DNA of 64,000 nucleotides from an uncultured Ramlibacter sp. (GTDB lineage Bacteria; Pseudomonadota; Gammaproteobacteria; Burkholderiales; Burkholderiaceae_C), in NCBI RefSeq assembly GCF_936925435.1, contig NZ_CAKZHQ010000044.1:1-64000 (forward strand). The letters run 5' to 3'. Position 1 is the stretch's first letter. Each line of letters begins with the position of its first letter. Position numbers and translations under genes: made by a program. This document shows positions 200 to 53,829 of this stretch, in pieces. The notes below the pieces were generated by a model that did not search any database, was not told the origin of the DNA, and was given only the letters and a program-made list of their open reading frames with translations.

Positions 200-1105
200 A
201 TGAACAGAATCGGATTCATCATTTCGACCGTGCTGGTGGCGCTCGCGCTGCTCAGCTCCACGCTCTTCGTGGTCGACCAGCGCCAGTTCGGTGTGGTTTA
301 CGCGCTTGGCCAGATCAAGGACGTGATCACCGAGCCGGGCCTGAACTTCAAGCTGCCGCCGCCGTTCCAGGACGTCAAGTACCTGGACAAGCGCCTGCTG
401 ACGCTTGACAGCACCGACACCGAACCGCTGTACACGGCAGAAAAGCAGCGGCTGGTGATCGACTGGTATCTGCGCTGGCGCATCACCAACCCGTCGGAGT
501 ACATCCGCGCGCTGGGTGTGGATGAAGCGGCTGGGGCCAGCAAGCTCAGCCAGGAGGTGCGCAACGCCTTCCAGGAAGAGATCGGCAAGCGCACTGTGCG
601 CGAGCTGATCTCGACCAAGCGCGAGGAGCTGATGTCCGAGGTCAAGCGCGAGGTGCTGGACAAGGTGCGCGGCCGCAACTGGGGCATCGAGGTGATCGAC
701 GTGCGCATGACGCGCGCCGACTACGTGGACACCATCACCGAGTCGGTCTACCGCCGCATGCAGGCCGAGCGCCAGCGCGTGGCCAACGAGCTGCGCTCCA
801 CCGGCGCGGCCGAGGGCGAGAAGATCCGCGCCGACGCCGACCGCCAGCGTGAGGTCGCCGTGGCCAACGCCTACCGCGACGCCCAGAAGGTGCGTGGCGA
901 GGGCGATGCCCAGGCCGCCGCCATCTACGGCGAGGCTTTCGGCCGCGACCCGCAATTCGCCCAGTTCTACCGCAGCCTCGATGCCTACAAGGCCAGCTTC
1001 AACAAGAAGGGCGACGTGATGGTGCTGGACCCGGCCAGCTCGGAATTCTTCAAGACCTTCCGCAACGGCGGCGGCGCCGCTGCTGCCGCTCCGGCGCGCA
1101 AGTAA
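200..1105 (+). CDS. hflC: HflC, FtsH protease modulator
   Basis: A 301-residue band 7/SPFH protein. An N-terminal membrane anchor (about residues 5-25) is followed by the conserved FVVDQRQFGVVYALG segment, the SPFH core (to about 190) and an Ala/Glu/Arg-rich coiled coil with RADADRQREVAVANAYRD. It ends in a low-complexity Ala/Pro tail. With HflK it forms the HflKC complex in the inner membrane that regulates FtsH access to membrane substrates. The start is supported by an AGGAAG ribosome-binding site. It is directly downstream of hflK and upstream of DUF2065, the normal order in Burkholderiales. Confidence 0.96.
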   Translation: MNRIGFIISTVLVALALLSSTLFVVDQRQFGVVYALGQIKDVITEPGLNFKLPPPFQDVKYLDKRLLTLDSTDTEPLYTAEKQRLVIDWYLRWRITNPSEYIRALGVDEAAGASKLSQEVRNAFQEEIGKRTVRELISTKREELMSEVKREVLDKVRGRNWGIEVIDVRMTRADYVDTITESVYRRMQAERQRVANELRSTGAAEGEKIRADADRQREVAVANAYRDAQKVRGEGDAQAAAIYGEAFGRDPQFAQFYRSLDAYKASFNKKGDVMVLDPASSEFFKTFRNGGGAAAAAPARK

Positions 1106-1117
1106 GCGCGGCGGGCC

Positions 1118-1306
1118 GTGAACAGCGACACCTTCTGGGCGGCCTGCGCCCTGGTGCTGGTGATCGAGGGCCTGTTTCCCTTTCTCTCGCCCGGCGGCTG
1201 GCGCCGTACCTTCGCCCGCCTGCTGGCGCTGCACGATGGCCAGCTGCGTTTCTTCGGCCTGTGCAGCATCGCGCTGGGTCTGTTGACGCTCTGGCTGATG
1301 GCCTGA
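1118..1306 (+). CDS. DUF2065 small inner-membrane protein
   Basis: A 62-residue protein starting with GTG 12 nt after hflC. It has two hydrophobic segments (about 5-20 and 42-60) around the pattern EGLFPFLSPGGWRR, the signature of DUF2065 (YjeT-like) proteins. These are usually encoded just after hflC. Function is unknown; the position suggests a small accessory of the HflKC/FtsH membrane complex, but that is inference from synteny. Confidence 0.88.
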   Translation: MNSDTFWAACALVLVIEGLFPFLSPGGWRRTFARLLALHDGQLRFFGLCSIALGLLTLWLMA

Positions 1307-1363
1307 ACGGCCAGTCCGGCGCGGACCGGTAAAATACTGTTTTTAACAGCGTCCGAAAATCTC

Positions 1364-3878
<2,515 letters not shown>

Positions 3879-41505: not shown

Positions 41506-42207
41506 TTACCCCAGCACGATCACCCGGGCCCGCGGCACCGTGGTGAAGGGGTCGTAGCCGACCAGGCCGGCGCGCACCGCCGACTCCTGGTGGGTGGCGA
41601 TGCGCTTGCGCTGTTCGGGGTTGGCCAGCCGCAGGGCCTCGGCCAGCTCCGGCTCCAGCCGCACCGTGATGGGGGTGGCCATCTCGTACACCGCACCGGG
41701 CTGGTTGGCGATCGACCAGGAGATCGCAAGCGTGCCGCTGGGCAGCTGGATGGCCTGGCTGTGGGGCGGGAACAGGTGGCGCACAGCCGTCCAGATGGCC
41801 GTGCAGCTCGGGTCCATCGGCGCCGACTCGGCGGCAGGCTCTGTGTCCGGGCCGGCAGGCTCGCACAGCCAGCTGATGGCCTCGTCCTTGGAGTCGAAGA
41901 CCGTGAACTGCAGGCCCTGGGCCCGCGCCACCTTCTCGCTGGTGCGGGTGAGCCGGTCGGGCGCCACCACCGAGGCCATGCGCTGCAGGTGGGCCATGGA
42001 ATGCGCGATCTGCTCGCCGACTTGAAGCTGCGCCGCCAGCGGCACCTCGCCCTCGAGCAGCAGCAGGTCCATCAGCAGCAGCTTGTCGCCGTGCGAGCGG
42101 GTCACTGCCCCCAGCTCGCGCAGCATCTCCAGCACCGCCGGCGTGTCGATCGGGCCGGCGAGGCGGGCCTCCACACGGTCGGGGAGGCGGGCGATCTGGA
42201 TTTGCAT
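41506..42207 (-). CDS. Two-domain protein: STAS/SpoIIAA-like N-terminus plus unrecognised C-terminus
   Basis: A 233-residue cytoplasmic protein. Residues about 1-120 resemble a SpoIIAA-like (STAS-related) fold: LAGPIDTPAVLEMLREL, LLLMDLLLLEGEVPLAAQL and a segment ending AISWLCEP. The C-terminal 100 residues (AIWTAVRHLFPPHSQAIQL, then ITVRLEPELAEAL) are of a type I do not confidently recognise, possibly a small DUF found in Burkholderiales. No signal or TM. Function unknown. Confidence 0.7.
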   Translation of the reverse strand: MQIQIARLPDRVEARLAGPIDTPAVLEMLRELGAVTRSHGDKLLLMDLLLLEGEVPLAAQLQVGEQIAHSMAHLQRMASVVAPDRLTRTSEKVARAQGLQFTVFDSKDEAISWLCEPAGPDTEPAAESAPMDPSCTAIWTAVRHLFPPHSQAIQLPSGTLAISWSIANQPGAVYEMATPITVRLEPELAEALRLANPEQRKRIATHQESAVRAGLVGYDPFTTVPRARVIVLG

Positions 42208-46088: not shown

Positions 46089-46916
46089 TCAGGCGGTGGC
46101 CAGCAGATGGTGCAGGTAGGGCAGTTGCTGCAGTGCGGCCTGTTCGCCTTCGTCGATGAGATAGGCCAGCCTGTCGGTGGCGAGCAGGCCGGCGCGCTGC
46201 CTGAACTCGGGCAGGACCATGATCAACTCGGCATGGTGGGCCGCGCTGTGGAATGCCAGTTTGGCGCGCAGCAGGTTGTTGGCCAGGATCGCGGCGAGCT
46301 GGTCGGCGCTGCGCCTGGCGCCGTGGGCCTGCGCATGGAGCGGCAGCTCGAAACCGACGGCAACGATGACGCGCGCCCCGTGCCTGATTGCCACGCTGAC
46401 CGGCAGCGGGTCGGCCCATGCGCCGTCCACCAGCAGCCGCTCGCCCAGGCGCTGAGGCGCCAGGGCCGGCGGAAGCGCCAGGCCGGCGCGCAGGCCTTGG
46501 GCCAGGGAGCCGTAGGCCAGTTCCACCAGGTCGCCGGTTGCGAAATCGGTGGCCGTCAGGTGCAGCGGTAGGGCGGCGCCCTCGATCTGCCTGTCGCGAA
46601 AGGCCGCGTCCAGCTGCCGCAGCTGCGTGGCGCGCTTGTCGCGCAGCCCCATGACCGAGCGCAGAAAGCCCGGCATGCCGCGGCCCCCGGCGAGCTCCCT
46701 GGGCCACAGGCGTGCGGCCAGCGCCCTGGACGCGTCCATCGGGTCGCCGAAGGCGACCAGTGCGGCAAAGACCGCCCCCGTGCCGCAGCCGACAACGCGC
46801 TCGATGCCGATGCCGGCGTCGGCCAGGGCCTTGACGACGCCCAGCGCGGCCACGCAGCGTACGCCGCCCGCACCGATGACCAGCGTGACCTCGGTTGGGG
46901 GGCGATCCGCGGCCAT
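46089..46916 (-). CDS. Patatin-like protein lacking the catalytic serine
   Basis: A 275-residue patatin-fold protein paralogous to the one at 51.8-52.6 kb. The oxyanion-type loop is IGAGGVRCVAALGVV, and the catalytic Asp164 is in LVDGAWADPLPV. The nucleophile elbow, however, reads VVGCGTGAV, with Gly45 where GxSxG should hold Ser. It probably cannot hydrolyse lipids and may be a regulatory or binding protein. It lies downstream of a STAS gene, mirroring the STAS-patatin order of the main cluster. Start: this ATG gives a normal N-terminus; the open frame upstream is unlikely. Confidence 0.85.
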   Translation of the reverse strand: MAADRPPTEVTLVIGAGGVRCVAALGVVKALADAGIGIERVVGCGTGAVFAALVAFGDPMDASRALAARLWPRELAGGRGMPGFLRSVMGLRDKRATQLRQLDAAFRDRQIEGAALPLHLTATDFATGDLVELAYGSLAQGLRAGLALPPALAPQRLGERLLVDGAWADPLPVSVAIRHGARVIVAVGFELPLHAQAHGARRSADQLAAILANNLLRAKLAFHSAAHHAELIMVLPEFRQRAGLLATDRLAYLIDEGEQAALQQLPYLHHLLATA

Positions 46917-46929
46917 CGTGTGCGCCCGT

Positions 46930-47268
46930 TCAGGACTGGAAGCTGGCGGTGGCGGCCTGCACATCGGCAAAGATCTGCACGATGCCGGTGAAGCCCGCGA
47001 GCGCAAGCACCCGTTCGACCTGCGGCTGCAGCGCGGCGATCCTGAGGTCGCCGCCGCCGCGGCGGCTGTCCTTGACGGCGCCCAGCAGCGAGCGCAGGCC
47101 GGCGCTGCTGGTGTAGTTGACGCTGGAGAAGTCGACCACCAGCCGCACCCGGCCTTGGGCGATCGGCGCGGCGAAGCTTGAGCTCAATGCCTCGGCGTTC
47201 AGACCATCGACGCTGCCGGTGATCTTGATGAGCGTGGTGGTATCGTGTTCGGTCAGTGTGACTTGCAC
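46930..47268 (-). CDS. STAS-domain anti-sigma factor antagonist (RsbV/SpoIIAA-like), copy 1
   Basis: A 112-residue single-domain STAS protein. SVDGLNAEALSSSF and VVDFSSVNYTSSAGLRSLL contain the usual phospho-acceptor serine (Ser54/Ser55). In partner switching, unphosphorylated STAS protein binds the RsbW-like kinase and frees its target. It precedes the catalytically defective patatin by 13 nt. Confidence 0.9.
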   Translation of the reverse strand: MQVTLTEHDTTTLIKITGSVDGLNAEALSSSFAAPIAQGRVRLVVDFSSVNYTSSAGLRSLLGAVKDSRRGGGDLRIAALQPQVERVLALAGFTGIVQIFADVQAATASFQS

Positions 47269-47300
47269 TCGGATCCTCCGTTGGTCAACATTCAGCGACG

Positions 47301-47807
47301 ATGCCCGACACGCCCCTGCCCACCGTTTTCGTCCGCCGCGCCAGAGCGGAAGACGGGCAGTGCATGCGCGGCTTCGTCCAGCAACTGAGCACCGCGTCGC
47401 GCCGCAACCGCTTTCATGGCGCGGTCGGCGCCGATGCGCCGGGCCTGCTGGACTCCCTGCTGGGGGCTGAAGGCGAACTCCACGCCGCCTGGGTGGCCTG
47501 CATCTGGGGCCCCAACGGGGAGGAGATCGTCGGCGAGGGCGGCTGGCATGTGGTCGATGCCAGGCAGCGGCGCGCCGAACTGGGCGTGAGCGTGCTTGAC
47601 TCCTGGCAGGGATCGGGCGTGGCCCACGTCCTGATGACCAGGCTGATCGAAGGCGCGCGCAGCGCCGGCGTGCAGCAGCTCTACGGCGACGTCCTCGAAT
47701 CGAACGAGCGCATGCTCGCCTTCATGCAAAAGCACGGCATGCAGCAGGGGGCCGACTGGCCCTGGGACGCGGGCGGGTCCGTCCGCATGGAACTGCGGCT
47801 GTCCTGA
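47301..47807 (+). CDS. GNAT acetyltransferase
   Basis: A 168-residue Gcn5-type acetyltransferase: VFVRRARAEDGQCMRGFVQ at the start, then AELGVSVLDSWQGSGVAHVL, the acetyl-CoA loop, here with S-G-V-A. The order and length match proteins that acetylate small molecules or protein N-termini; substrate unknown. It is the only plus-strand gene inside the STAS-patatin cluster, and divides the second STAS-patatin pair from the rest. Confidence 0.87.
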   Translation: MPDTPLPTVFVRRARAEDGQCMRGFVQQLSTASRRNRFHGAVGADAPGLLDSLLGAEGELHAAWVACIWGPNGEEIVGEGGWHVVDARQRRAELGVSVLDSWQGSGVAHVLMTRLIEGARSAGVQQLYGDVLESNERMLAFMQKHGMQQGADWPWDAGGSVRMELRLS

Positions 47808-47831
47808 GCGGGGGCTGCGGCGCACGGCGCT

Positions 47832-49178
47832 TCAGGCCGCGGCGCGCGCGTCAAGCGGCAGGCGGACGGTGAAAATGCTGCCGCGTTCCGGCTGGCTCGA
47901 CACTGCGATGTCACCTCCCATCATGGAGGCGAAATGCTTGCTGATGGTCAGGCCCAGGCCGGTGCCTCCGTATTTGCGCGTGGTGGACGCGTCCGCCTGG
48001 GTGAAGGGCTGGAACAGCCGCCCCAGCTGTTCGTCGGTCATGCCGATGCCCGAGTCATGGACGGCCAGTACCACCTCGCCCCGGCCGGCCTCGAGTTCCA
48101 CATTCACGGTGATGGTGCCGCGCTCGGTGAATTTGCAGGCGTTGGACAGCAGATTGAACAGGATCTGGCGCAGCTTGGTCTGGTCGGTGTGCATGGCGAT
48201 CGCATACGCCGGGATCTGCAGCTCGAAGCGGTTGCCGTTTGCGGCGATGACGGGGGCGATGCTGTCGACCACGCCTTTGAGCATGGGCTTGAGTTCGAAG
48301 CTCTCAATGAACAGGTCCATTTTGCCCGCCTCGATTTTCGACAGGTCCAGGATCTCGTTGATCAGGGACAGCAGGTGCTTGCCCGAGCCCCGGATGCGCT
48401 CGAGGTCGTCGACGAAGCCCGTGCGCCCTATGTCCTGCGCTTCCTCGGCCAGCATTTCCGCATAGCCGATGATCGCGTTCAGCGGTGTGCGCAGTTCATG
48501 GCTCATGTTGGCCAGAAACTGCGACTTGGTGTGGCTCGCCGCTTCCGCGCTCTCCTTGGCCTCGTTCAGTTCCAGGCCGCGCTGCTCCAGCAGCAGGCTT
48601 TTTTCCACGATCTCGGCGTGCTGCTGCCGGATCTGGCGCAGGCCGTTGACAACCCGCTTGGACTGCGCGTGGGACAGGTAGGCGAAGGTCAGCATGTAGC
48701 CGAACAGCGCGGCGCTGCTCAGAAGCGAGACGCTCAGACTGGAGTCGGGCTGGATCTGCAAGCCGACGACGCTGGCCGACAGCAGGACGCCGCCCAGCAT
48801 CAGCACCACCCCGCGCACCGCATGCGCCGGGCCACCGACGCTCAGCAGGCCGCCAACCATGGCGACAATGATCGCCGTGCTGGGCCAGAGGCTGAGCTGC
48901 AACACCGTCAGCCAGACGCCGGTGACCAGGCCGTCGATCAGGAGGTTGCGCAGCTCGGTCGCCTTCGGTGTCTTGCTGCGCCGTGCCAGGTGGTAGGCGA
49001 TGTGCGGCCAGACCAGGGTGTGGACCACCAGCGCGCCCAGCAAGGGCAGGGTCAGTCCGGCCGGATAGAGGTGCAGGATCACCATCAGCAGGATGGCCGG
49101 CATCGTCACCACGCGCGTCAGGAAGTCGACGCGGACGATGGGATGGATCGCAGGACCGGGGGAAGGGGCCATGTTCAT
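47832..49178 (-). CDS. MASE2-domain sensor histidine kinase
   Basis: A 448-residue membrane kinase. The N-terminal MASE2-like membrane sensor ([20 protein letters not shown], about residues 11-170) has five or six TM helices. A coiled coil leads to HisKA ([19 protein letters not shown]), and HATPase has the N box [12 protein letters not shown] and the [12 protein letters not shown] box. Start overlaps the stop of the upstream kinase gene (ATGA). It has no receiver, so partner-switching receivers in the cluster are likely targets. Confidence 0.92.
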
Positions 49179-50584
49179 GCTGCGGCCTGCGTTGCAGGGA
49201 CCGGTGCCAGGGGCAGGACAGCGGTGAAGACCGTGCCGGCGCCGGAGGTGCTCTCTACACTGAGGCTGCCGCCCAGCATTTCGCAGTAGCGCTTGGACAG
49301 GGTCAGGCCCAGGGCCGCGCCGCCGTGCTTGCGCGTGCTGGAGCCATCTGCCTGGGTGAAGGGCTGGAACAGCCGCGCGAGGTGCTCGGCGCTCATGCCG
49401 ATGCCGGTGTCGGCGACGCGAAAACGCAGGCTCCTGCCATCGGCCGACGCCTGCACGTCCAGTTGCACCCGGCCGCCTTCGGTGAACTTCAGGCCGTTGC
49501 CCAGCAAATTGAGCAGGATCTGCCGCAGCTTGGCCGGATCGGTGACCATGCGGCCCACCTGGGGCGCGCATTCGATCTCCAATGTGTTGCGGTTCTTGCG
49601 CGCCAGGCCCGCCAGGCCGACGGCGGTTTCCTGTGCCAGCGTCGGCACGTCGATTTCCTCCAGGCTGACGCCGGTCTTGCCCGCTTCCAGCCGCGCCAGT
49701 TCGAGCACCTCGTTGACCAGGGCCAGCAGGTGCTGGCCCGAGGCCCTGATCTTGCCCAGGTCGGCCTGCCGGGTGGCGGTGTCGGTGTCCGGCTCCTCGA
49801 TCAGCATTTCCGAGTAGCCGATCACGGCGTTGAGCGGGGTCTTGAGTTCATGGCTCATATTGGCCAGGAACTGTGACTTGGCGACGCTTGCCGCTTCCGC
49901 CTGCTCCTTGGCGAAGGCGAGCTGACGCGAGCGCTCCTGCAACTGCTGGATGGAGTCGCGCGCCAACCGCACCGCGGCAGCGGAGCGTTCGCGCAGTCTT
50001 TCGGCATTGAGTCCGCTCATGAGGAGGTACAGGGACGACAGGTACAGAAGCAAGGTAAGTGCCAGCGCCTGGCCCCAATCGACCGTCACGCCGTCGGCCG
50101 TGGCCTGGTAAACCAGCATCACGACGTAGAACAGCGGCGCCAGGTGGGCGAACAGGGCGGCGCGGCGAAAGCTCACAAAAGCCTGGTCGGCGACCCGCAA
50201 CGCGAGCAGGAAAAACAGCCAGCTGCTGTAGCCGCCGGACACATAGACGGCACCGGTCCAGAAAACCAGGTCGATGGTCAGGAAGAGCAGGCCCAGGTCG
50301 AAGGCCTTGACCCGGTCGAACCATTGCACCAGGACCCGCCACGAGACCAGGCAATAGAGTTCGACGAGCAACGCATAGGTGGCCATGGGCTTCCAGGCTG
50401 TCTCGTGCAGGATCAGGAGGTTGTGGCCCACCATCACAATGATCATCAGCTGGAAGCCGATGAACCGCACCTTGGGGAAGGTGACAACGTTCATGTGGCG
50501 CCGGCGGCCCGCCCGCTGGCGGGTCGCCTCCTGCGGATCGGCCAGAATCTGTTGGTCCAGCGTCAACCGGTCCTTGCTAGCCAT
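49175..50584 (-). CDS. Membrane sensor histidine kinase
   Basis: A 469-residue kinase. A 30-residue polar start leads to about six TM helices (residues about 35-200), then a coiled coil, HisKA ([19 protein letters not shown]) and HATPase with [15 protein letters not shown] and [12 protein letters not shown]. The G2-like box reads GGAALG, a little unlike the common GGTGLG. Its ATG overlaps the stop of the receiver-phosphatase gene by 8 bp. It is probably a functional paralogue of the downstream kinase. Confidence 0.9.
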
Positions 50585-51752
50585 GGCGCACCGCCAGCAG
50601 GGAGATGTCGTCAAAGCGCGGACCGTCGCCGACATGGCTGGCCAGCGCCGCCTCGATGCTGTCCAGGAGTGCCCCCACGCTGGCGTCAGGCTCGGCCCCG
50701 AGCAGCGCCAGCAGGCGGTCCTCGCCGAACATCTGCGCATCCTGGTCTCTTGCGTCTGTCACGCCGTCGGTGAATGCCAGCAGCAGCGCGCCGGGCGCCA
50801 ACACGGTGGATTCGGCCCGGAAGAGCAGCCCGGCCTGCAGGCCGACCGCCGGCCCGGTCGGCGCCAGCCGGCGCGGCGCTGGCGACCCGGGGTCCAGCAC
50901 CACGGGCGGGTCGTGGCCGGCATTGACGTACTGCAGCTCGCCGGTCGCGGGTGACAGCACGGCGAAGAACACGGTGGCGAACATGTTCGCCTTGCTGTGC
51001 GTCTGGGCAATGTAGTCGTTGATGCTGGCCAGGGTGTGCACCACGACCGTGCGGGGGTCGGGATCGCTGAACTCCTGGCGCGCAAGCACGCGCAGCAGGC
51101 TGCGAAACAGGGCCATGAACAGCGCCGCGCCCACGCCTTTGTCGCAGACATCCGCCATCACCAGGCCCAGCCGGCCGTCGGGCAGCGCGAAGGCGTCATA
51201 GAAGTCGCCGGCGACCTGGCGCGCGGGCTGGAAGCGCGCCGACAGGTCCCAGCCGTCGACCGAGGGCAGGGTGTCCGGCAGGAAGCTGCGCTGGATGTCG
51301 CGCCCGATGGCCAGTTCGCGCTCCAGGCTCTTGGCGTAGACCTGCTCGCGGTCGCGCAGGCGCTTCTTGGCCAGGGCCGAATCGACACGGGCCCGCAGGA
51401 TCGCCGGATTGAACGGCTTGGGCAGGTGGTCCTCGGCGCCCATGTCGATGCAGCGGGCAATGCTCTCCGCATCGTCGATGGCCGTGATCATGATGACGGG
51501 GATGTGGCGCAGCGCCGGGTCGGCCTTCAGGCGCTCCAGCAGGTCATAGCCGTTCATCACGGGCATCATGATGTCCAGCAGGATCAGGTCGAAGGCCTGG
51601 GCCGCGATGGCTTCGAGCGCCTGCTGGCCATCTTGCGCCAGCTCCACCAGGAAGCCCTGGCGCTGCAGCCGGCGCGACAGCAGGTCGCGGTTCATCTCGT
51701 TGTCGTCGACCACCAGCAGGCGGTGCTGCGGCCCATCGGACAGGACGCTCAT
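50577..51752 (-). CDS. Response regulator with SpoIIE/RsbU PP2C phosphatase output
   Basis: A 391-residue cytoplasmic regulator. The receiver (about 10-130) has [15 protein letters not shown] with Asp60 and KPFNP. The SpoIIE-type PP2C phosphatase (about 170-390) shows [15 protein letters not shown] and [18 protein letters not shown], with metal aspartates, and [16 protein letters not shown]. It should dephosphorylate STAS proteins after phosphorylation by one of the adjacent kinases. An in-frame GTG at 51764 is an alternative start. Confidence 0.93.
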
Positions 51753-51765
51753 CTGCCCGCCCACT

Positions 51766-52641
51766 TCACGCAGCCTGCGCCACGGCGCGGTCTTCCAGCA
51801 GCCTGTGCAGGTAGGGCATCTGGGCCTCGGCGGCTCGGGCGCCTTCCTCGATCACGTAGGGGATCAGGTGCGTGTCGAACAGGCGCACCGGCCGGTCGAA
51901 GTCCGGCATGATGGGGATGATCTCGGTGTGGTGGGCCAGGTTGTTGAAGGCGAAGTTCGCGCGCAACAGGTTGTTGGTGTAGACGCTGGTCACGTGGAAG
52001 GCGTAGCGCGAAGCCGAGCGGATCTGCGACGGATAGGGGCTCTCGAAGCCCATGGTCAGGATGATGTCCGCGCCCTCCTGCATCGCGACGGCCACCGGCA
52101 TCGGGTCGGAGACGCAGCCGTCCAGCAGGCGCCGGCCGCCGATCTCGACGGGCTTCCAGACGTAGGGGATGGCGGTGCTGGCCCGGATGGATTGCGCAAT
52201 GCTGCCTTCCTTGAGAACGACCCGCTCACCGTTCATCAGGTCGGTGGCCACGATGTACAGCGGCAGCCTGGTGTCGGCGAAGCTGACGCCGCTGAAGGCG
52301 CGCTCCAGCGCCTTCTTGATCGGCCGGTCGTCGAGCATTGCAAAGCCGCCGTCGAAGCCGAACAATTTGGGCATGAAGGCCCCCAGCAAACCCTTCCAGT
52401 TGGTCTTGCTGCTGATCTCCGGCGTCCAGAGTTTCTGGGTCAGGGCGGTGCTTTCGTCGACAGTGTGGCCGATCGCCATGCTGGCCGCATAAATGCTGCC
52501 GCCGCTGGCGCCGACCACCATGTCCAGTTCGATGCCCTCGCGCTGCAGGACCCGCCACAGCCCGAGCGCGGCGGCGCATTTGACGCTGCCGGCCCCGATC
52601 ACCAGCGCCACACGTTTTTTCTTGCCTGTCTTGTTGTTCAT
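51766..52641 (-). CDS. Patatin-like phospholipase with intact Ser-Asp dyad
   Basis: A 291-residue patatin-fold protein. The nucleophile elbow is VVGASGGSI (Ser46 in GxSxG), and the dyad Asp174 is in LLDGCVSDPMPV. The loop GAGSVKCAAALG differs from the common GGGxRG oxyanion motif. It probably releases fatty acids from phospholipids or acts on another acyl lipid in the cytoplasm. It sits between STAS and receiver-SpoIIE genes, an unexpected location for a lipase. Confidence 0.88.
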   Translation of the reverse strand: MNNKTGKKKRVALVIGAGSVKCAAALGLWRVLQREGIELDMVVGASGGSIYAASMAIGHTVDESTALTQKLWTPEISSKTNWKGLLGAFMPKLFGFDGGFAMLDDRPIKKALERAFSGVSFADTRLPLYIVATDLMNGERVVLKEGSIAQSIRASTAIPYVWKPVEIGGRRLLDGCVSDPMPVAVAMQEGADIILTMGFESPYPSQIRSASRYAFHVTSVYTNNLLRANFAFNNLAHHTEIIPIMPDFDRPVRLFDTHLIPYVIEEGARAAEAQMPYLHRLLEDRAVAQAA

Positions 52642-52661
52642 GGCGGATCCTGGAACAGCGC

Positions 52662-53000
52662 TCAGGCGCTGTAGCTGGCGACGGCGCCATCGACGTCATC
52701 GAAGACCTTGAGGATGCTGGTGAAGCCGCTGAGCTCCAGGATCTTCAGGACCGGCGCATGGACGGCCGCCAGGCGCAGATCGCCGCCGCTGCTGCGGGTG
52801 TCGCGCACCACCGCGAGCAGGGCGCGCAGCCCGGCGCTGCTGGTGTAGCCCACGCCGGACAGGTCGCCGACCAGGTACACATGGCCTTCGCCCACATGGG
52901 CCTGCAGTTGCGCCAGCAGCGCTTCGGCCGTCAGGCCGTCGACATTGCCGACGATGCGCACGACCGTGGCCGGTGCGCGGTGCTCCACATGAATTTCCAT
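52662..53000 (-). CDS. STAS-domain anti-sigma factor antagonist, copy 2
   Basis: A 112-residue STAS protein very similar to the copy at 46.9 kb: NVDGLTAEALLAQLQAHVGE and LSGVGYTSSAGLRALLAVV with the same Ser54/Ser55. It lies between the RsbW-like kinase and the intact patatin gene, with short gaps (29 and 20 nt), so the three should be made together. Confidence 0.92.
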   Translation of the reverse strand: MEIHVEHRAPATVVRIVGNVDGLTAEALLAQLQAHVGEGHVYLVGDLSGVGYTSSAGLRALLAVVRDTRSSGGDLRLAAVHAPVLKILELSGFTSILKVFDDVDGAVASYSA

Positions 53001-53029
53001 CGTTGACCCCCTGCCCTTGACAACAAGAT

Positions 53030-53479
53030 TCAGTGCGCCCGCAGGCGCTTGACCATCTGCAGCCGGTTGCCGCCGCCCGCGACCTGCTCGTGCCGGACTT
53101 CATCCATCATCTGGCGGATCAGGTGCCAGCCCAGGCCGCCTTCACGCCGCTGCTCCCAGTCGCCCGTCAGGTCCGGCGGTGGCGCGTCCGCCGGTTTGAA
53201 AACAGGCGCGCGGTCCTCGATCAGCAGCACGACCTGGGCGTCATCGCAGCGAACGTCCAGCAAGATCGGCCCCGGCTCCGTGCCGCGGTAGGCATGGTTG
53301 ATGATGTTGCTGCAGGCTTCCTCGCCCGCCAGCCGCACGGCAAAAGCTGCTTCATCGTCCAGCCCGGCTTCCTTGCAGGTGGCCTCCAGGAAGGCCAGCA
53401 GCGTCCCCAGGCTGGCCGGAACGGCCAGGCAACTGGTTTGCCGGCAAAGGCTCAACGCCTGTCCGCCCGCCCGAGACAC
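53030..53479 (-). CDS. RsbW-like anti-sigma factor serine kinase (HATPase)
   Basis: A 149-residue GHKL ATPase. It has the N box GEEACSNIINHAYRG (about 52-66), an altered G1 region IEDRAPVFKPADAPP and the G2 loop GGLGWHLIRQMMDEV. Such kinases phosphorylate STAS antagonists and bind a sigma factor or other partner. No sigma factor gene is nearby, so the partner is unknown. It overlaps the receiver gene upstream by 28 bp. Confidence 0.9.
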   Translation of the reverse strand: MSRAGGQALSLCRQTSCLAVPASLGTLLAFLEATCKEAGLDDEAAFAVRLAGEEACSNIINHAYRGTEPGPILLDVRCDDAQVVLLIEDRAPVFKPADAPPPDLTGDWEQRREGGLGWHLIRQMMDEVRHEQVAGGGNRLQMVKRLRAH

Positions 53480-53829
53480 TGCTCGATCTTTTCCAGGAGG
53501 CGCGCAAGCTCAATCGGTTTGGTGTCGAAATCGTCGCAACCCGCGTCCACCGCGCGCTGCCTGTCGCCCGACATGGCGTGTGCCGTCAGCGCGATGATCG
53601 GAATCTTGCATGTCGCTTCGCCGGCCTTGAGCCGGCGCGTGGCTTCCCAGCCGTCGATCACCGGCAGGCTCATGTCCATGAGGACCAGGTCGGGGCTGCG
53701 TTCCTGGGCTGCCGCCAGGCCTTCGGCGCCGTCGGTCGCGATGAGGATGTCGTAGCCGCGCCGCTGCAAGCGCCGCGACAGCATGTCGCGGTTCATCTCG
53801 TTGTCTTCGACGATCAGAAGAGTGGGCAC
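53452..53829 (-). CDS. Single-domain response regulator (CheY-like)
   Basis: A 125-residue receiver: LLIVEDNEMNRDMLSRRL, phospho-acceptor Asp52 in LVLMDMSLPVIDGWE, PIIALTAHAM and KPIEL. It starts with GTG at 53829 because a receiver must start here; there is no clear Shine-Dalgarno. It is the first gene of the partner-switching cluster and may receive phosphate from the two kinases. Confidence 0.85.
   Translation of the reverse strand: MPTLLIVEDNEMNRDMLSRRLQRRGYDILIATDGAEGLAAAQERSPDLVLMDMSLPVIDGWEATRRLKAGEATCKIPIIALTAHAMSGDRQRAVDAGCDDFDTKPIELARLLEKIEQCLGRADRR

Follow-up and report, generated by a model that had tools for sequence, protein, structure and literature searches.

A partner-switching gene cluster of an uncultured Ramlibacter species with a patatin-type acyl hydrolase as its candidate output

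Genes of the cluster and their catalytic residues

We analyzed a partner-switching gene cluster that includes two patatin genes, found in a 64,000-nucleotide (nt) stretch of DNA from an uncultured Ramlibacter sp. (contig NZ_CAKZHQ010000044.1, positions 1 to 64,000 of the forward strand); the whole of this stretch is called the window below. Ten genes lie within positions 46089 to 53829, and their families were assigned with Pfam and NCBIfam. The gene order, strands, and families given in the original prediction, which had been made from the sequence alone, held for all ten.

Seven genes on the minus strand, from 53829 down to 47832, are packed like an operon, with −28, 29, 20, 1, −8, and −4 nt between consecutive genes. 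The first encodes a single-domain receiver (REC; 53452 to 53829; PF00072, 94.5 bits); it starts at a GTG at 53829, and its 3′ end overlaps the next gene by 28 nt. A receiver, single or fused, also precedes RsbW in many of the Pseudomonadota and Gemmatimonadota loci described below. The second gene encodes an RsbW-type serine kinase of the HATPase_c_2 family with an intact N-box (53030 to 53479; PF13581, 104.9 bits), and the third encodes STAS1, of the anti-sigma-antagonist type (52662 to 53000; PF01740, 66 bits; TIGR00377, above the cutoff). Next come PAT1, a predicted patatin-type acyl hydrolase and the putative output of the system (51766 to 52641; PF01734, 96 bits), and a phosphatase with a receiver and a SpoIIE-type PP2C domain (50577 to 51764; PF00072, 106.9 bits; PF07228, 158 bits). 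The candidate output gene is thus placed between STAS and PP2C, inside the switch operon. The last two genes encode membrane histidine kinases: HK1 (49175 to 50584; HisKA, HATPase_c, and a weak 6TM_PilS match), whose start was assigned to the ATG at 50584, overlapping the phosphatase stop, and HK2 (47832 to 49178; MASE2, HisKA, and HATPase_c), whose ATG at 49178 overlaps the HK1 stop.

The next gene, on the plus strand and tail to tail with HK2, encodes a GNAT acetyltransferase (47301 to 47807; PF00583, 39.5 bits). Divergent from it, on the minus strand, are the genes for a second STAS protein, STAS2 (46930 to 47268; PF01740, 70.4 bits), and a second patatin, PAT2 (46089 to 46916; PF01734, 69.4 bits). 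About 4 kb from PAT2, a minus-strand frame of 233 amino acids (aa) at 41506 to 42207 contains a SpoIIAA-like stretch that scored 23.6 bits against a Pfam cutoff of 25.

The full partner-switch set that had been claimed, a kinase, a STAS protein with Ser54/Ser55, and a receiver-phosphatase, was recovered with its conserved residues. Aligned with the homologs described in the next section, kinase residues E54, N58, and N138 were present in 100% of 69 rows, the PP2C aspartates D187, D205, D333, D385, and D386 in 100% of 57 rows, and S54 and S55 of STAS in 100% of 73 rows, a value that describes conservation only, phosphorylation being predicted. By these residues, the predicted core has the N-box kinase, the conserved STAS serine, and the PP2C metal-binding aspartates of a partner switch.

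The two patatins differ. The catalytic dyad of PAT1 is intact, with nucleophile Ser46 in a GASGG motif and Asp174 in DGC. Its AlphaFold2 model has a pLDDT of 90.7, and the nearest solved patatin, both by sequence profile and by fold, is PlpD of Pseudomonas aeruginosa (5fya/5fqu; TM-score, 0.73 to 0.75), with an identity of only 23 to 24%. PlpD is secreted and anchored in the outer membrane; in contrast, PAT1 has no obvious signal sequence, as judged by eye. PAT2 reads GCGTG at the nucleophile, with Gly for Ser, and so lacks the GxSxG motif and is predicted to be inactive. As read in the assembly, this codon differs by a single base, and in the PAT2 ortholog of a related genome, G003, it is the catalytic Asp that is replaced, by Glu. 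Between the window and G003 the nonsynonymous divergence (dN) is 0.19 for PAT2 and 0.04 for PAT1, and the ratio to synonymous divergence (dN/dS, by NG86) is 0.18 and 0.09, respectively; these ratios are rough, the dS of PAT2 being about 1. Because its dN/dS is 0.18, PAT2 appears to be still constrained, and with its frame open as well, the idea that it is a plain pseudogene is unsupported.

Conservation and ancestry of the STAS-patatin pairs

When PAT1 was searched against 399 genomes of the family, 42 contained a match at E 1e-25. Neighborhoods of up to 19 kb were examined for 36 of these, the other six being the weakest matches (91 to 93 bits). In one group of patatins (group A: the window, G315, G434, G214, and G143, plus G003, G007, and G025), the patatin occurs with STAS and mostly also with the kinase and PP2C; in G143, STAS is 2.6 kb from the patatin. 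Scanning 84,980 species genomes with a profile made from 13 rows of group A patatins then yielded 72 loci. Domains in these loci were called not by Pfam but by profiles that started from the window proteins, at E 1e-5 and 60% coverage.

Of the 67 loci whose upstream sequence reached 600 nt or more, 57 (57 of 72 overall) had a STAS gene directly upstream of the patatin on the same strand. From the end of the STAS domain to the patatin domain there were 15 to 162 nt, and in 22 of the 57, a possible start of the patatin gene overlapped the region of the STAS stop codon (ATGA type in 15). The 57 loci came from Pseudomonadota (26), Chloroflexota (19), Gemmatimonadota (4), Spirochaetota (3), Bacteroidota (3), and Acidobacteriota (1), with one from no named phylum; the Chloroflexota, Spirochaetota, and Bacteroidota loci are from metagenome-assembled genomes (MAGs). 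Three further high-scoring genomes of the order (G514, G532, and G607; 435 to 458 bits) all had RsbW-STAS-PAT-PAT followed by PP2C. Because the pairing recurs in this many loci and in six named phyla, an adjacency confined to this strain, or to Comamonadaceae, is ruled out. Not all of the loci are independent: four (L106, L152, L158, and L162) come from contigs also represented by G003, G214, G434, and G143, and L139 and L140 have identical patatin rows.

The rest of the switch accompanies the pair. RsbW was found within 600 nt upstream of STAS in 49 of the 57 loci, and RsbW-STAS-PAT plus PP2C in 43. PP2C followed the last patatin within 800 nt in 30 loci and shared a single reading frame with RsbW in 14; tandem patatins occurred in 28. 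RsbW-STAS-PAT was the constant part, and the input half varied, being either histidine kinases and receivers or PAS-GAF-PP2C-RsbW fusions. Three such sensor fusions were scanned; two had 7TM, PAS, and GAF domains (L115 and L154) and one had PAS and GAF (L164). An all-versus-all search for further partners gave one protein family near the patatins, in 10 loci at a median distance of 847 nt; one member (L112:4136-5023, 295 aa) had no Pfam or PADLOC match, and the eight loci shown were all from Chloroflexota. The remaining families listed were farther away or in few loci and, by eye, seemingly unrelated. In L144 (8294 to 11755), the STAS-patatin pair is directly followed by a single 1,153-aa frame that joins a second patatin to two FHA domains and an ABC transporter.

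Patatins outside group A did not show the pairing. Generic patatins of the relatives had a STAS match in 0 of 26 loci (about 1.5 kb on each side), and the weaker matches of the order search, two sister (group B) patatins in G151 and one patatin in G693, had none in 1.5-kb flanks. Among the 29 sister patatins (group B, L072 to L100) there was no STAS match, even at E 0.01, and no RsbW or PP2C match. A GNAT gene lay within 1 kb in 15 of these 29 loci. In 12 of them (L073, L075, L077, L079, L083, L085, L086, L092, L096, L097, L098, and L099) there was a gene for a sigma factor of the extracytoplasmic function (ECF) type, within 1.4 kb of the patatin in 10 of the 12 and confirmed by Pfam as PF07638 in L085. 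In L083 a serine/threonine kinase with TPR repeats is encoded near the patatin, and similar large frames were seen by eye in L085 and L086. The group B neighborhood may be a second phospho-signaling setting for the same kind of patatin. Residues F232 and H237-H238-x-E240 were conserved in 98 to 100% of 63 STAS-adjacent patatins and each in <15% of the 29 group B patatins, and this signature is a candidate contact or metal site.

Group A patatins are rare in even samples: 5 of 399 genomes of the family, 4 of 399 of the order, 1 of 398 of the phylum, and 1 of 274 of the class, with the window genome counted each time. Cultured strains of Variovorax, Ramlibacter, and Luteimonas are among the carriers. 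A search of plasmids with PAT1 gave only matches of 25 to 33% identity.

The two STAS-patatin pairs of the window have relatives in different groups. In the patatin tree, PAT1 falls with first copies from Luteimonas, Gemmatimonadota, Chloroflexota, and one genome of the same family, G315 (16 rows), and PAT2 falls with Comamonadaceae (11 rows), each with an SH-aLRT support of 98. Outside the window's genus, the best relatives of PAT1, STAS1, RsbW, PP2C, and HK2 were mostly from Luteimonas, Gemmatimonadota, Zeimonas, or a Burkholderiales MAG, and PAT1 also had one in G315 (62%). STAS1, PP2C, and HK2 had their best matches in Gemmatimonadota or Luteimonas, and the kinase in Zeimonas, a Burkholderiales MAG, Gemmatimonadota, and Luteimonas. 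The best matches of STAS2 and GNAT were in Variovorax, Hydrogenophaga, Acidovorax, and Polaromonas loci, where the GNAT gene is beside or near the cluster, and the nine best relatives listed for STAS2 were all in Comamonadaceae-type loci. Matches of HK1 and REC were mixed between the two types.

Because PAT1 and STAS1 have best relatives of the Luteimonas/Gemmatimonadota type and PAT2, STAS2, and GNAT have relatives of the Comamonadaceae type, a recent duplication of the STAS-patatin pair in the window is ruled out. By these relationships we read the window as a complete system (system I, 53829 to 47832) and the remnant of another (system II: STAS2, PAT2, and the GNAT acetyltransferase as its companion). 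The original prediction had taken the repeated STAS-patatin order as evidence for a link between switch and lipase; that argument fails, the repeat being two systems of different ancestry, one with a catalytically broken patatin. It had mentioned neither this difference in ancestry nor the Gly at the PAT2 nucleophile.

The Gly is not confined to PAT2. Of 113 aligned patatin rows, 106 have Ser at the nucleophile, six have Gly, and one is gapped; the Asp is retained in 112. The Gly rows are PAT2, L143, and the first tandem copies in L126, L145, L149, and L151. The non-window cases are all from Chloroflexota, the copy being the first of two in L145, L149, and L151 and the first of four in L126, and they lie mostly next to a Ser copy; these neighbors are possibly enzyme/pseudoenzyme pairs. 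In the tree, the first patatins of tandems are largely separated by clade from the second ones, and therefore the tandem is old.

Sigma factors, tree correlations, and the place of the patatin

We looked for a sigma factor, the usual output of a partner switch, in the genome and in the loci. The absence of a sigma gene from the cluster, as originally claimed, was confirmed: PF04542 (sigma-70 region 2) had nine matches in the genome, none of them on the 91.7-kb contig that contains the window. No cognate sigma gene lies in or beside the operon, where the sigma-releasing switches (Rsb/SpoIIA) have one. For the loci, a general sigma profile was built from sequences chosen among the PF04542 matches listed over 31 genomes, and it recovered 20 of 20 of its own building sequences. 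It gave low scores to ECF factors of the PF07638 type, one of which (L073) it missed, and for this reason another profile was built from seven such factors and run as well. With the general profile, clear sigma genes were seen in the retrieved flanking sequence of two of the 57 STAS loci, at 7.4 kb (L158) and 2.0 kb (L144); a third match (L148) reached only 24.7 bits, in a receiver-containing frame. The ECF profile matched none of the group A loci, the STAS loci (0 of 57) included; the sigma genes reported above for 12 group B loci were matches to this same profile.

We then compared the trees of the four proteins. Over 49 loci, the tree-distance correlations were 0.69 for STAS-PATa (PATa being the patatin), STAS-RsbW, and RsbW-PP2C and lower for PATa-RsbW (0.53), STAS-PP2C (0.46), and PATa-PP2C (0.39). 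The partial correlation of STAS with PATa given RsbW was 0.52, and that of PATa with RsbW given STAS was 0.12. Within 30 Pseudomonadota and Gemmatimonadota loci, the values were 0.84 for STAS-PATa, 0.73 for RsbW-PP2C, and 0.18 for PATa-PP2C given STAS. In this exploratory analysis, the correlations fit a chain PP2C-RsbW-STAS-patatin. Gene order alone seems insufficient to give the pattern, because PP2C mostly follows the patatin in the 30 loci, and yet it is RsbW that correlates with PP2C, and little remains between PATa and PP2C given STAS.

From these data, and by analogy with known switches, we propose that the cluster encodes a partner-switching phosphorelay with a cytosolic patatin-type acyl hydrolase as its output in place of a sigma factor, a reading to which we give a probability of about 0.6. 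Signals would set the PP2C phosphatase, via histidine kinases and receivers here and via fused sensor domains in other phyla; a role of the histidine kinases in setting the phosphatase is plausible, given its receiver. The RsbW-type kinase and PP2C would set the phosphorylation state of STAS, and STAS, according to that state, would bind the patatin encoded right after it, altering its activity or its access to the membrane. The input and phosphorylation steps are taken from established knowledge of partner switches (PMC8256260). We infer the gating by STAS from gene order, the tree coupling, and the precedents HsbA-HsbD and SiaC-SiaD, and the binding of STAS to the patatin, the sign of the regulation, and lipid hydrolysis as its effect would follow in the same way. 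The gene pairing, in the window and in six phyla, points to possible direct control of membrane-lipid cleavage by the switch. Thus, the suggestion that the switch is read out by lipid hydrolysis and not by sigma release stands in part, on the adjacency in the loci and the rarity of sigma genes, and the repeat in the window adds nothing to it.

Several observations weigh against this reading. The scanning profile was made from cluster patatins, and therefore the 72 loci are biased toward that subfamily. Ten of the 67 loci lack the adjacency: five are without any STAS match (L121, L145, L149, L151, and L174), and in two, L131 and L162, other genes intervene between STAS and the patatin (in L131, at 900 to 3200, a gene for an MFS-type membrane protein with a cyclic-nucleotide-binding domain). 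In the remaining three (L122, L125, and L127), the gene next to the patatin on its upstream side is RsbW, and STAS lies about 1 kb beyond it. Gene adjacency could partly explain the chain of tree correlations, and in the 19 loci of other phyla the STAS-PATa correlation was only 0.47. The second patatin correlated best with RsbW (0.71, 26 loci), a poor fit to a simple chain. Group B patatins occur near ECF sigma genes, and so a connection to transcription would not be out of character for the family. Finally, the genome encodes sigma factors off the contig that might still be the target of the kinase.

The three loci with RsbW next to the patatin, and the 0.71 correlation, are what would be expected if the kinase, and not STAS, held the patatin in the place of a sigma factor, and dephosphorylated STAS freed the patatin by removing the kinase. 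This is the canonical logic of RsbW (PMC8256260). However, the coupling of PATa to RsbW nearly vanishes once STAS is accounted for (0.12 overall, −0.07 in the 30 Pseudomonadota and Gemmatimonadota loci, and −0.15 in the other subset), 6 of the 57 loci have a STAS-patatin pair without an RsbW match, and the two STAS-patatin pairs of the window have a single kinase gene in common. We consider this arrangement unlikely.

The off-contig sigma factors raise a different possibility, that the switch controls an unlinked sigma factor, here RpoS or FliA, and the patatin is merely a coexpressed member of the response. By NCBIfam, the sigma matches of the genome include RpoD, RpoS, RpoH, FliA, and RpoE; the RpoS match scored 384 bits against a cutoff of 379 (TIGR02394) and 386 against 394 (NF004207). 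There is a precedent in Pseudomonas, where the HsbR-HsbA switch acts on RpoS (PMC6482189). Against it, an effector that is merely coregulated should not keep its place immediately downstream of STAS in six different phyla, and STAS and the patatin share a history in both systems of the window. We regard this explanation as somewhat less probable still than the previous one. Last, the membrane kinases in the operon could mean that the patatin is an input, releasing a lipid product perceived by the histidine kinases or by the sensor of PP2C. The sensors vary between phyla, however, and the STAS-patatin pair does not, and nothing ties the sensors to lipids; we think this very improbable.

A patatin output gated by STAS remains our preferred reading, and it can be extended. 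The loci may represent a widespread, undescribed signaling class. In it, a patatin phospholipase would be gated directly by a STAS phospho-switch, environmental signals would be converted into membrane-lipid cleavage or a lipid messenger without transcription, and an old PATa/PATb tandem, whose first copy has repeatedly lost its nucleophile in some lineages, would work as an enzyme and regulatory-subunit pair. We offer this extension tentatively, judging the odds to be slightly against it.

Comparison with known systems

The original prediction did not recognize the arrangement as a described system, and we found no description of it either in the open-access library searched. No paper in that library joined patatin with a STAS domain, an anti-sigma factor antagonist, or partner switching. 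None of the wider matches listed describes a STAS-patatin switch, as judged by titles and the starts of abstracts, and the excerpt of PMC4552427 mentions patatin and RsbW together only as unrelated mutated genes.

Two known groupings that involve patatins were compared and rejected. The CBASS phospholipases, which are antiphage effectors, gave at best 31.6 bits in PADLOC and 20.8 bits against a cutoff of 200 in NCBIfam, and there was no cyclase among the ten proteins. RssA-RssB of Escherichia coli is similar in that a patatin gene is directly followed by that of a receiver protein with a PP2C-like domain. That domain of RssB has a PP2C-like fold, and we know of no explanation of the role of RssA. 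RssA is 26% identical to PAT1, and RssB is 28% identical to the phosphatase, mainly at the receiver end. Unlike in the window, no STAS or RsbW-type gene is annotated alongside, and the PP2C profile made from our loci did not match RssB. Scores against the NCBIfam models were below the cutoffs (65.6 for PAT1 and 57.7 for PAT2 against 272; 105.1 against 700 and 77.1 against 329), and membership in this system was rejected.

The kinase, STAS, and PP2C of the window, with their conserved catalytic residues, resemble those of RsbU-RsbV-RsbW-SigB of Bacillus subtilis (PMC8256260), with the difference that a patatin gene stands where that system has its sigma gene. SiaABCD of P. aeruginosa shares with the window cluster the lack of a sigma factor: the PP2C SiaA, the kinase SiaB, and the antagonist-type SiaC are encoded in an operon with the enzyme thought to be controlled. 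In that system the output is a diguanylate cyclase, SiaD, and SiaC is phosphorylated on Thr68 (PMC7647112), whereas the window has a patatin and a STAS protein with a conserved Ser. In the HptB-HsbR-HsbA system, a receiver protein sets the STAS-type HsbA, whose binding to an enzyme depends on phosphorylation, HsbD binding the phosphorylated form; HsbD, unlike the patatin, is a diguanylate cyclase (PMC5085249). HsbR (PA3346) also differs from the window proteins by combining kinase and phosphatase activities in one protein (PMC8256260).

The enzyme-output partner switches named in the excerpt of PMC7647112 (HsbA-HsbD, SiaC-SiaD, BgrV-BgrR, and MtT-MtG) all target diguanylate cyclases. The window cluster shares with such switches an output enzyme gene within the switch operon; a diguanylate cyclase is not its output, and Pfam found no GGDEF domain in the ten proteins. 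If the patatin is the output, partner switching extends to lipid metabolism, a role is suggested for a patatin subfamily for which we found none described, and there is a bearing on the pairing of rssA with rssB in E. coli. The module is small and defined by sequence, and it can be tested in the cultured carriers, Variovorax, Ramlibacter, and Luteimonas. By analogy with the systems above, we rate the cluster as a probable partner switch of the enzyme-output type, in which the enzyme is of a new kind.

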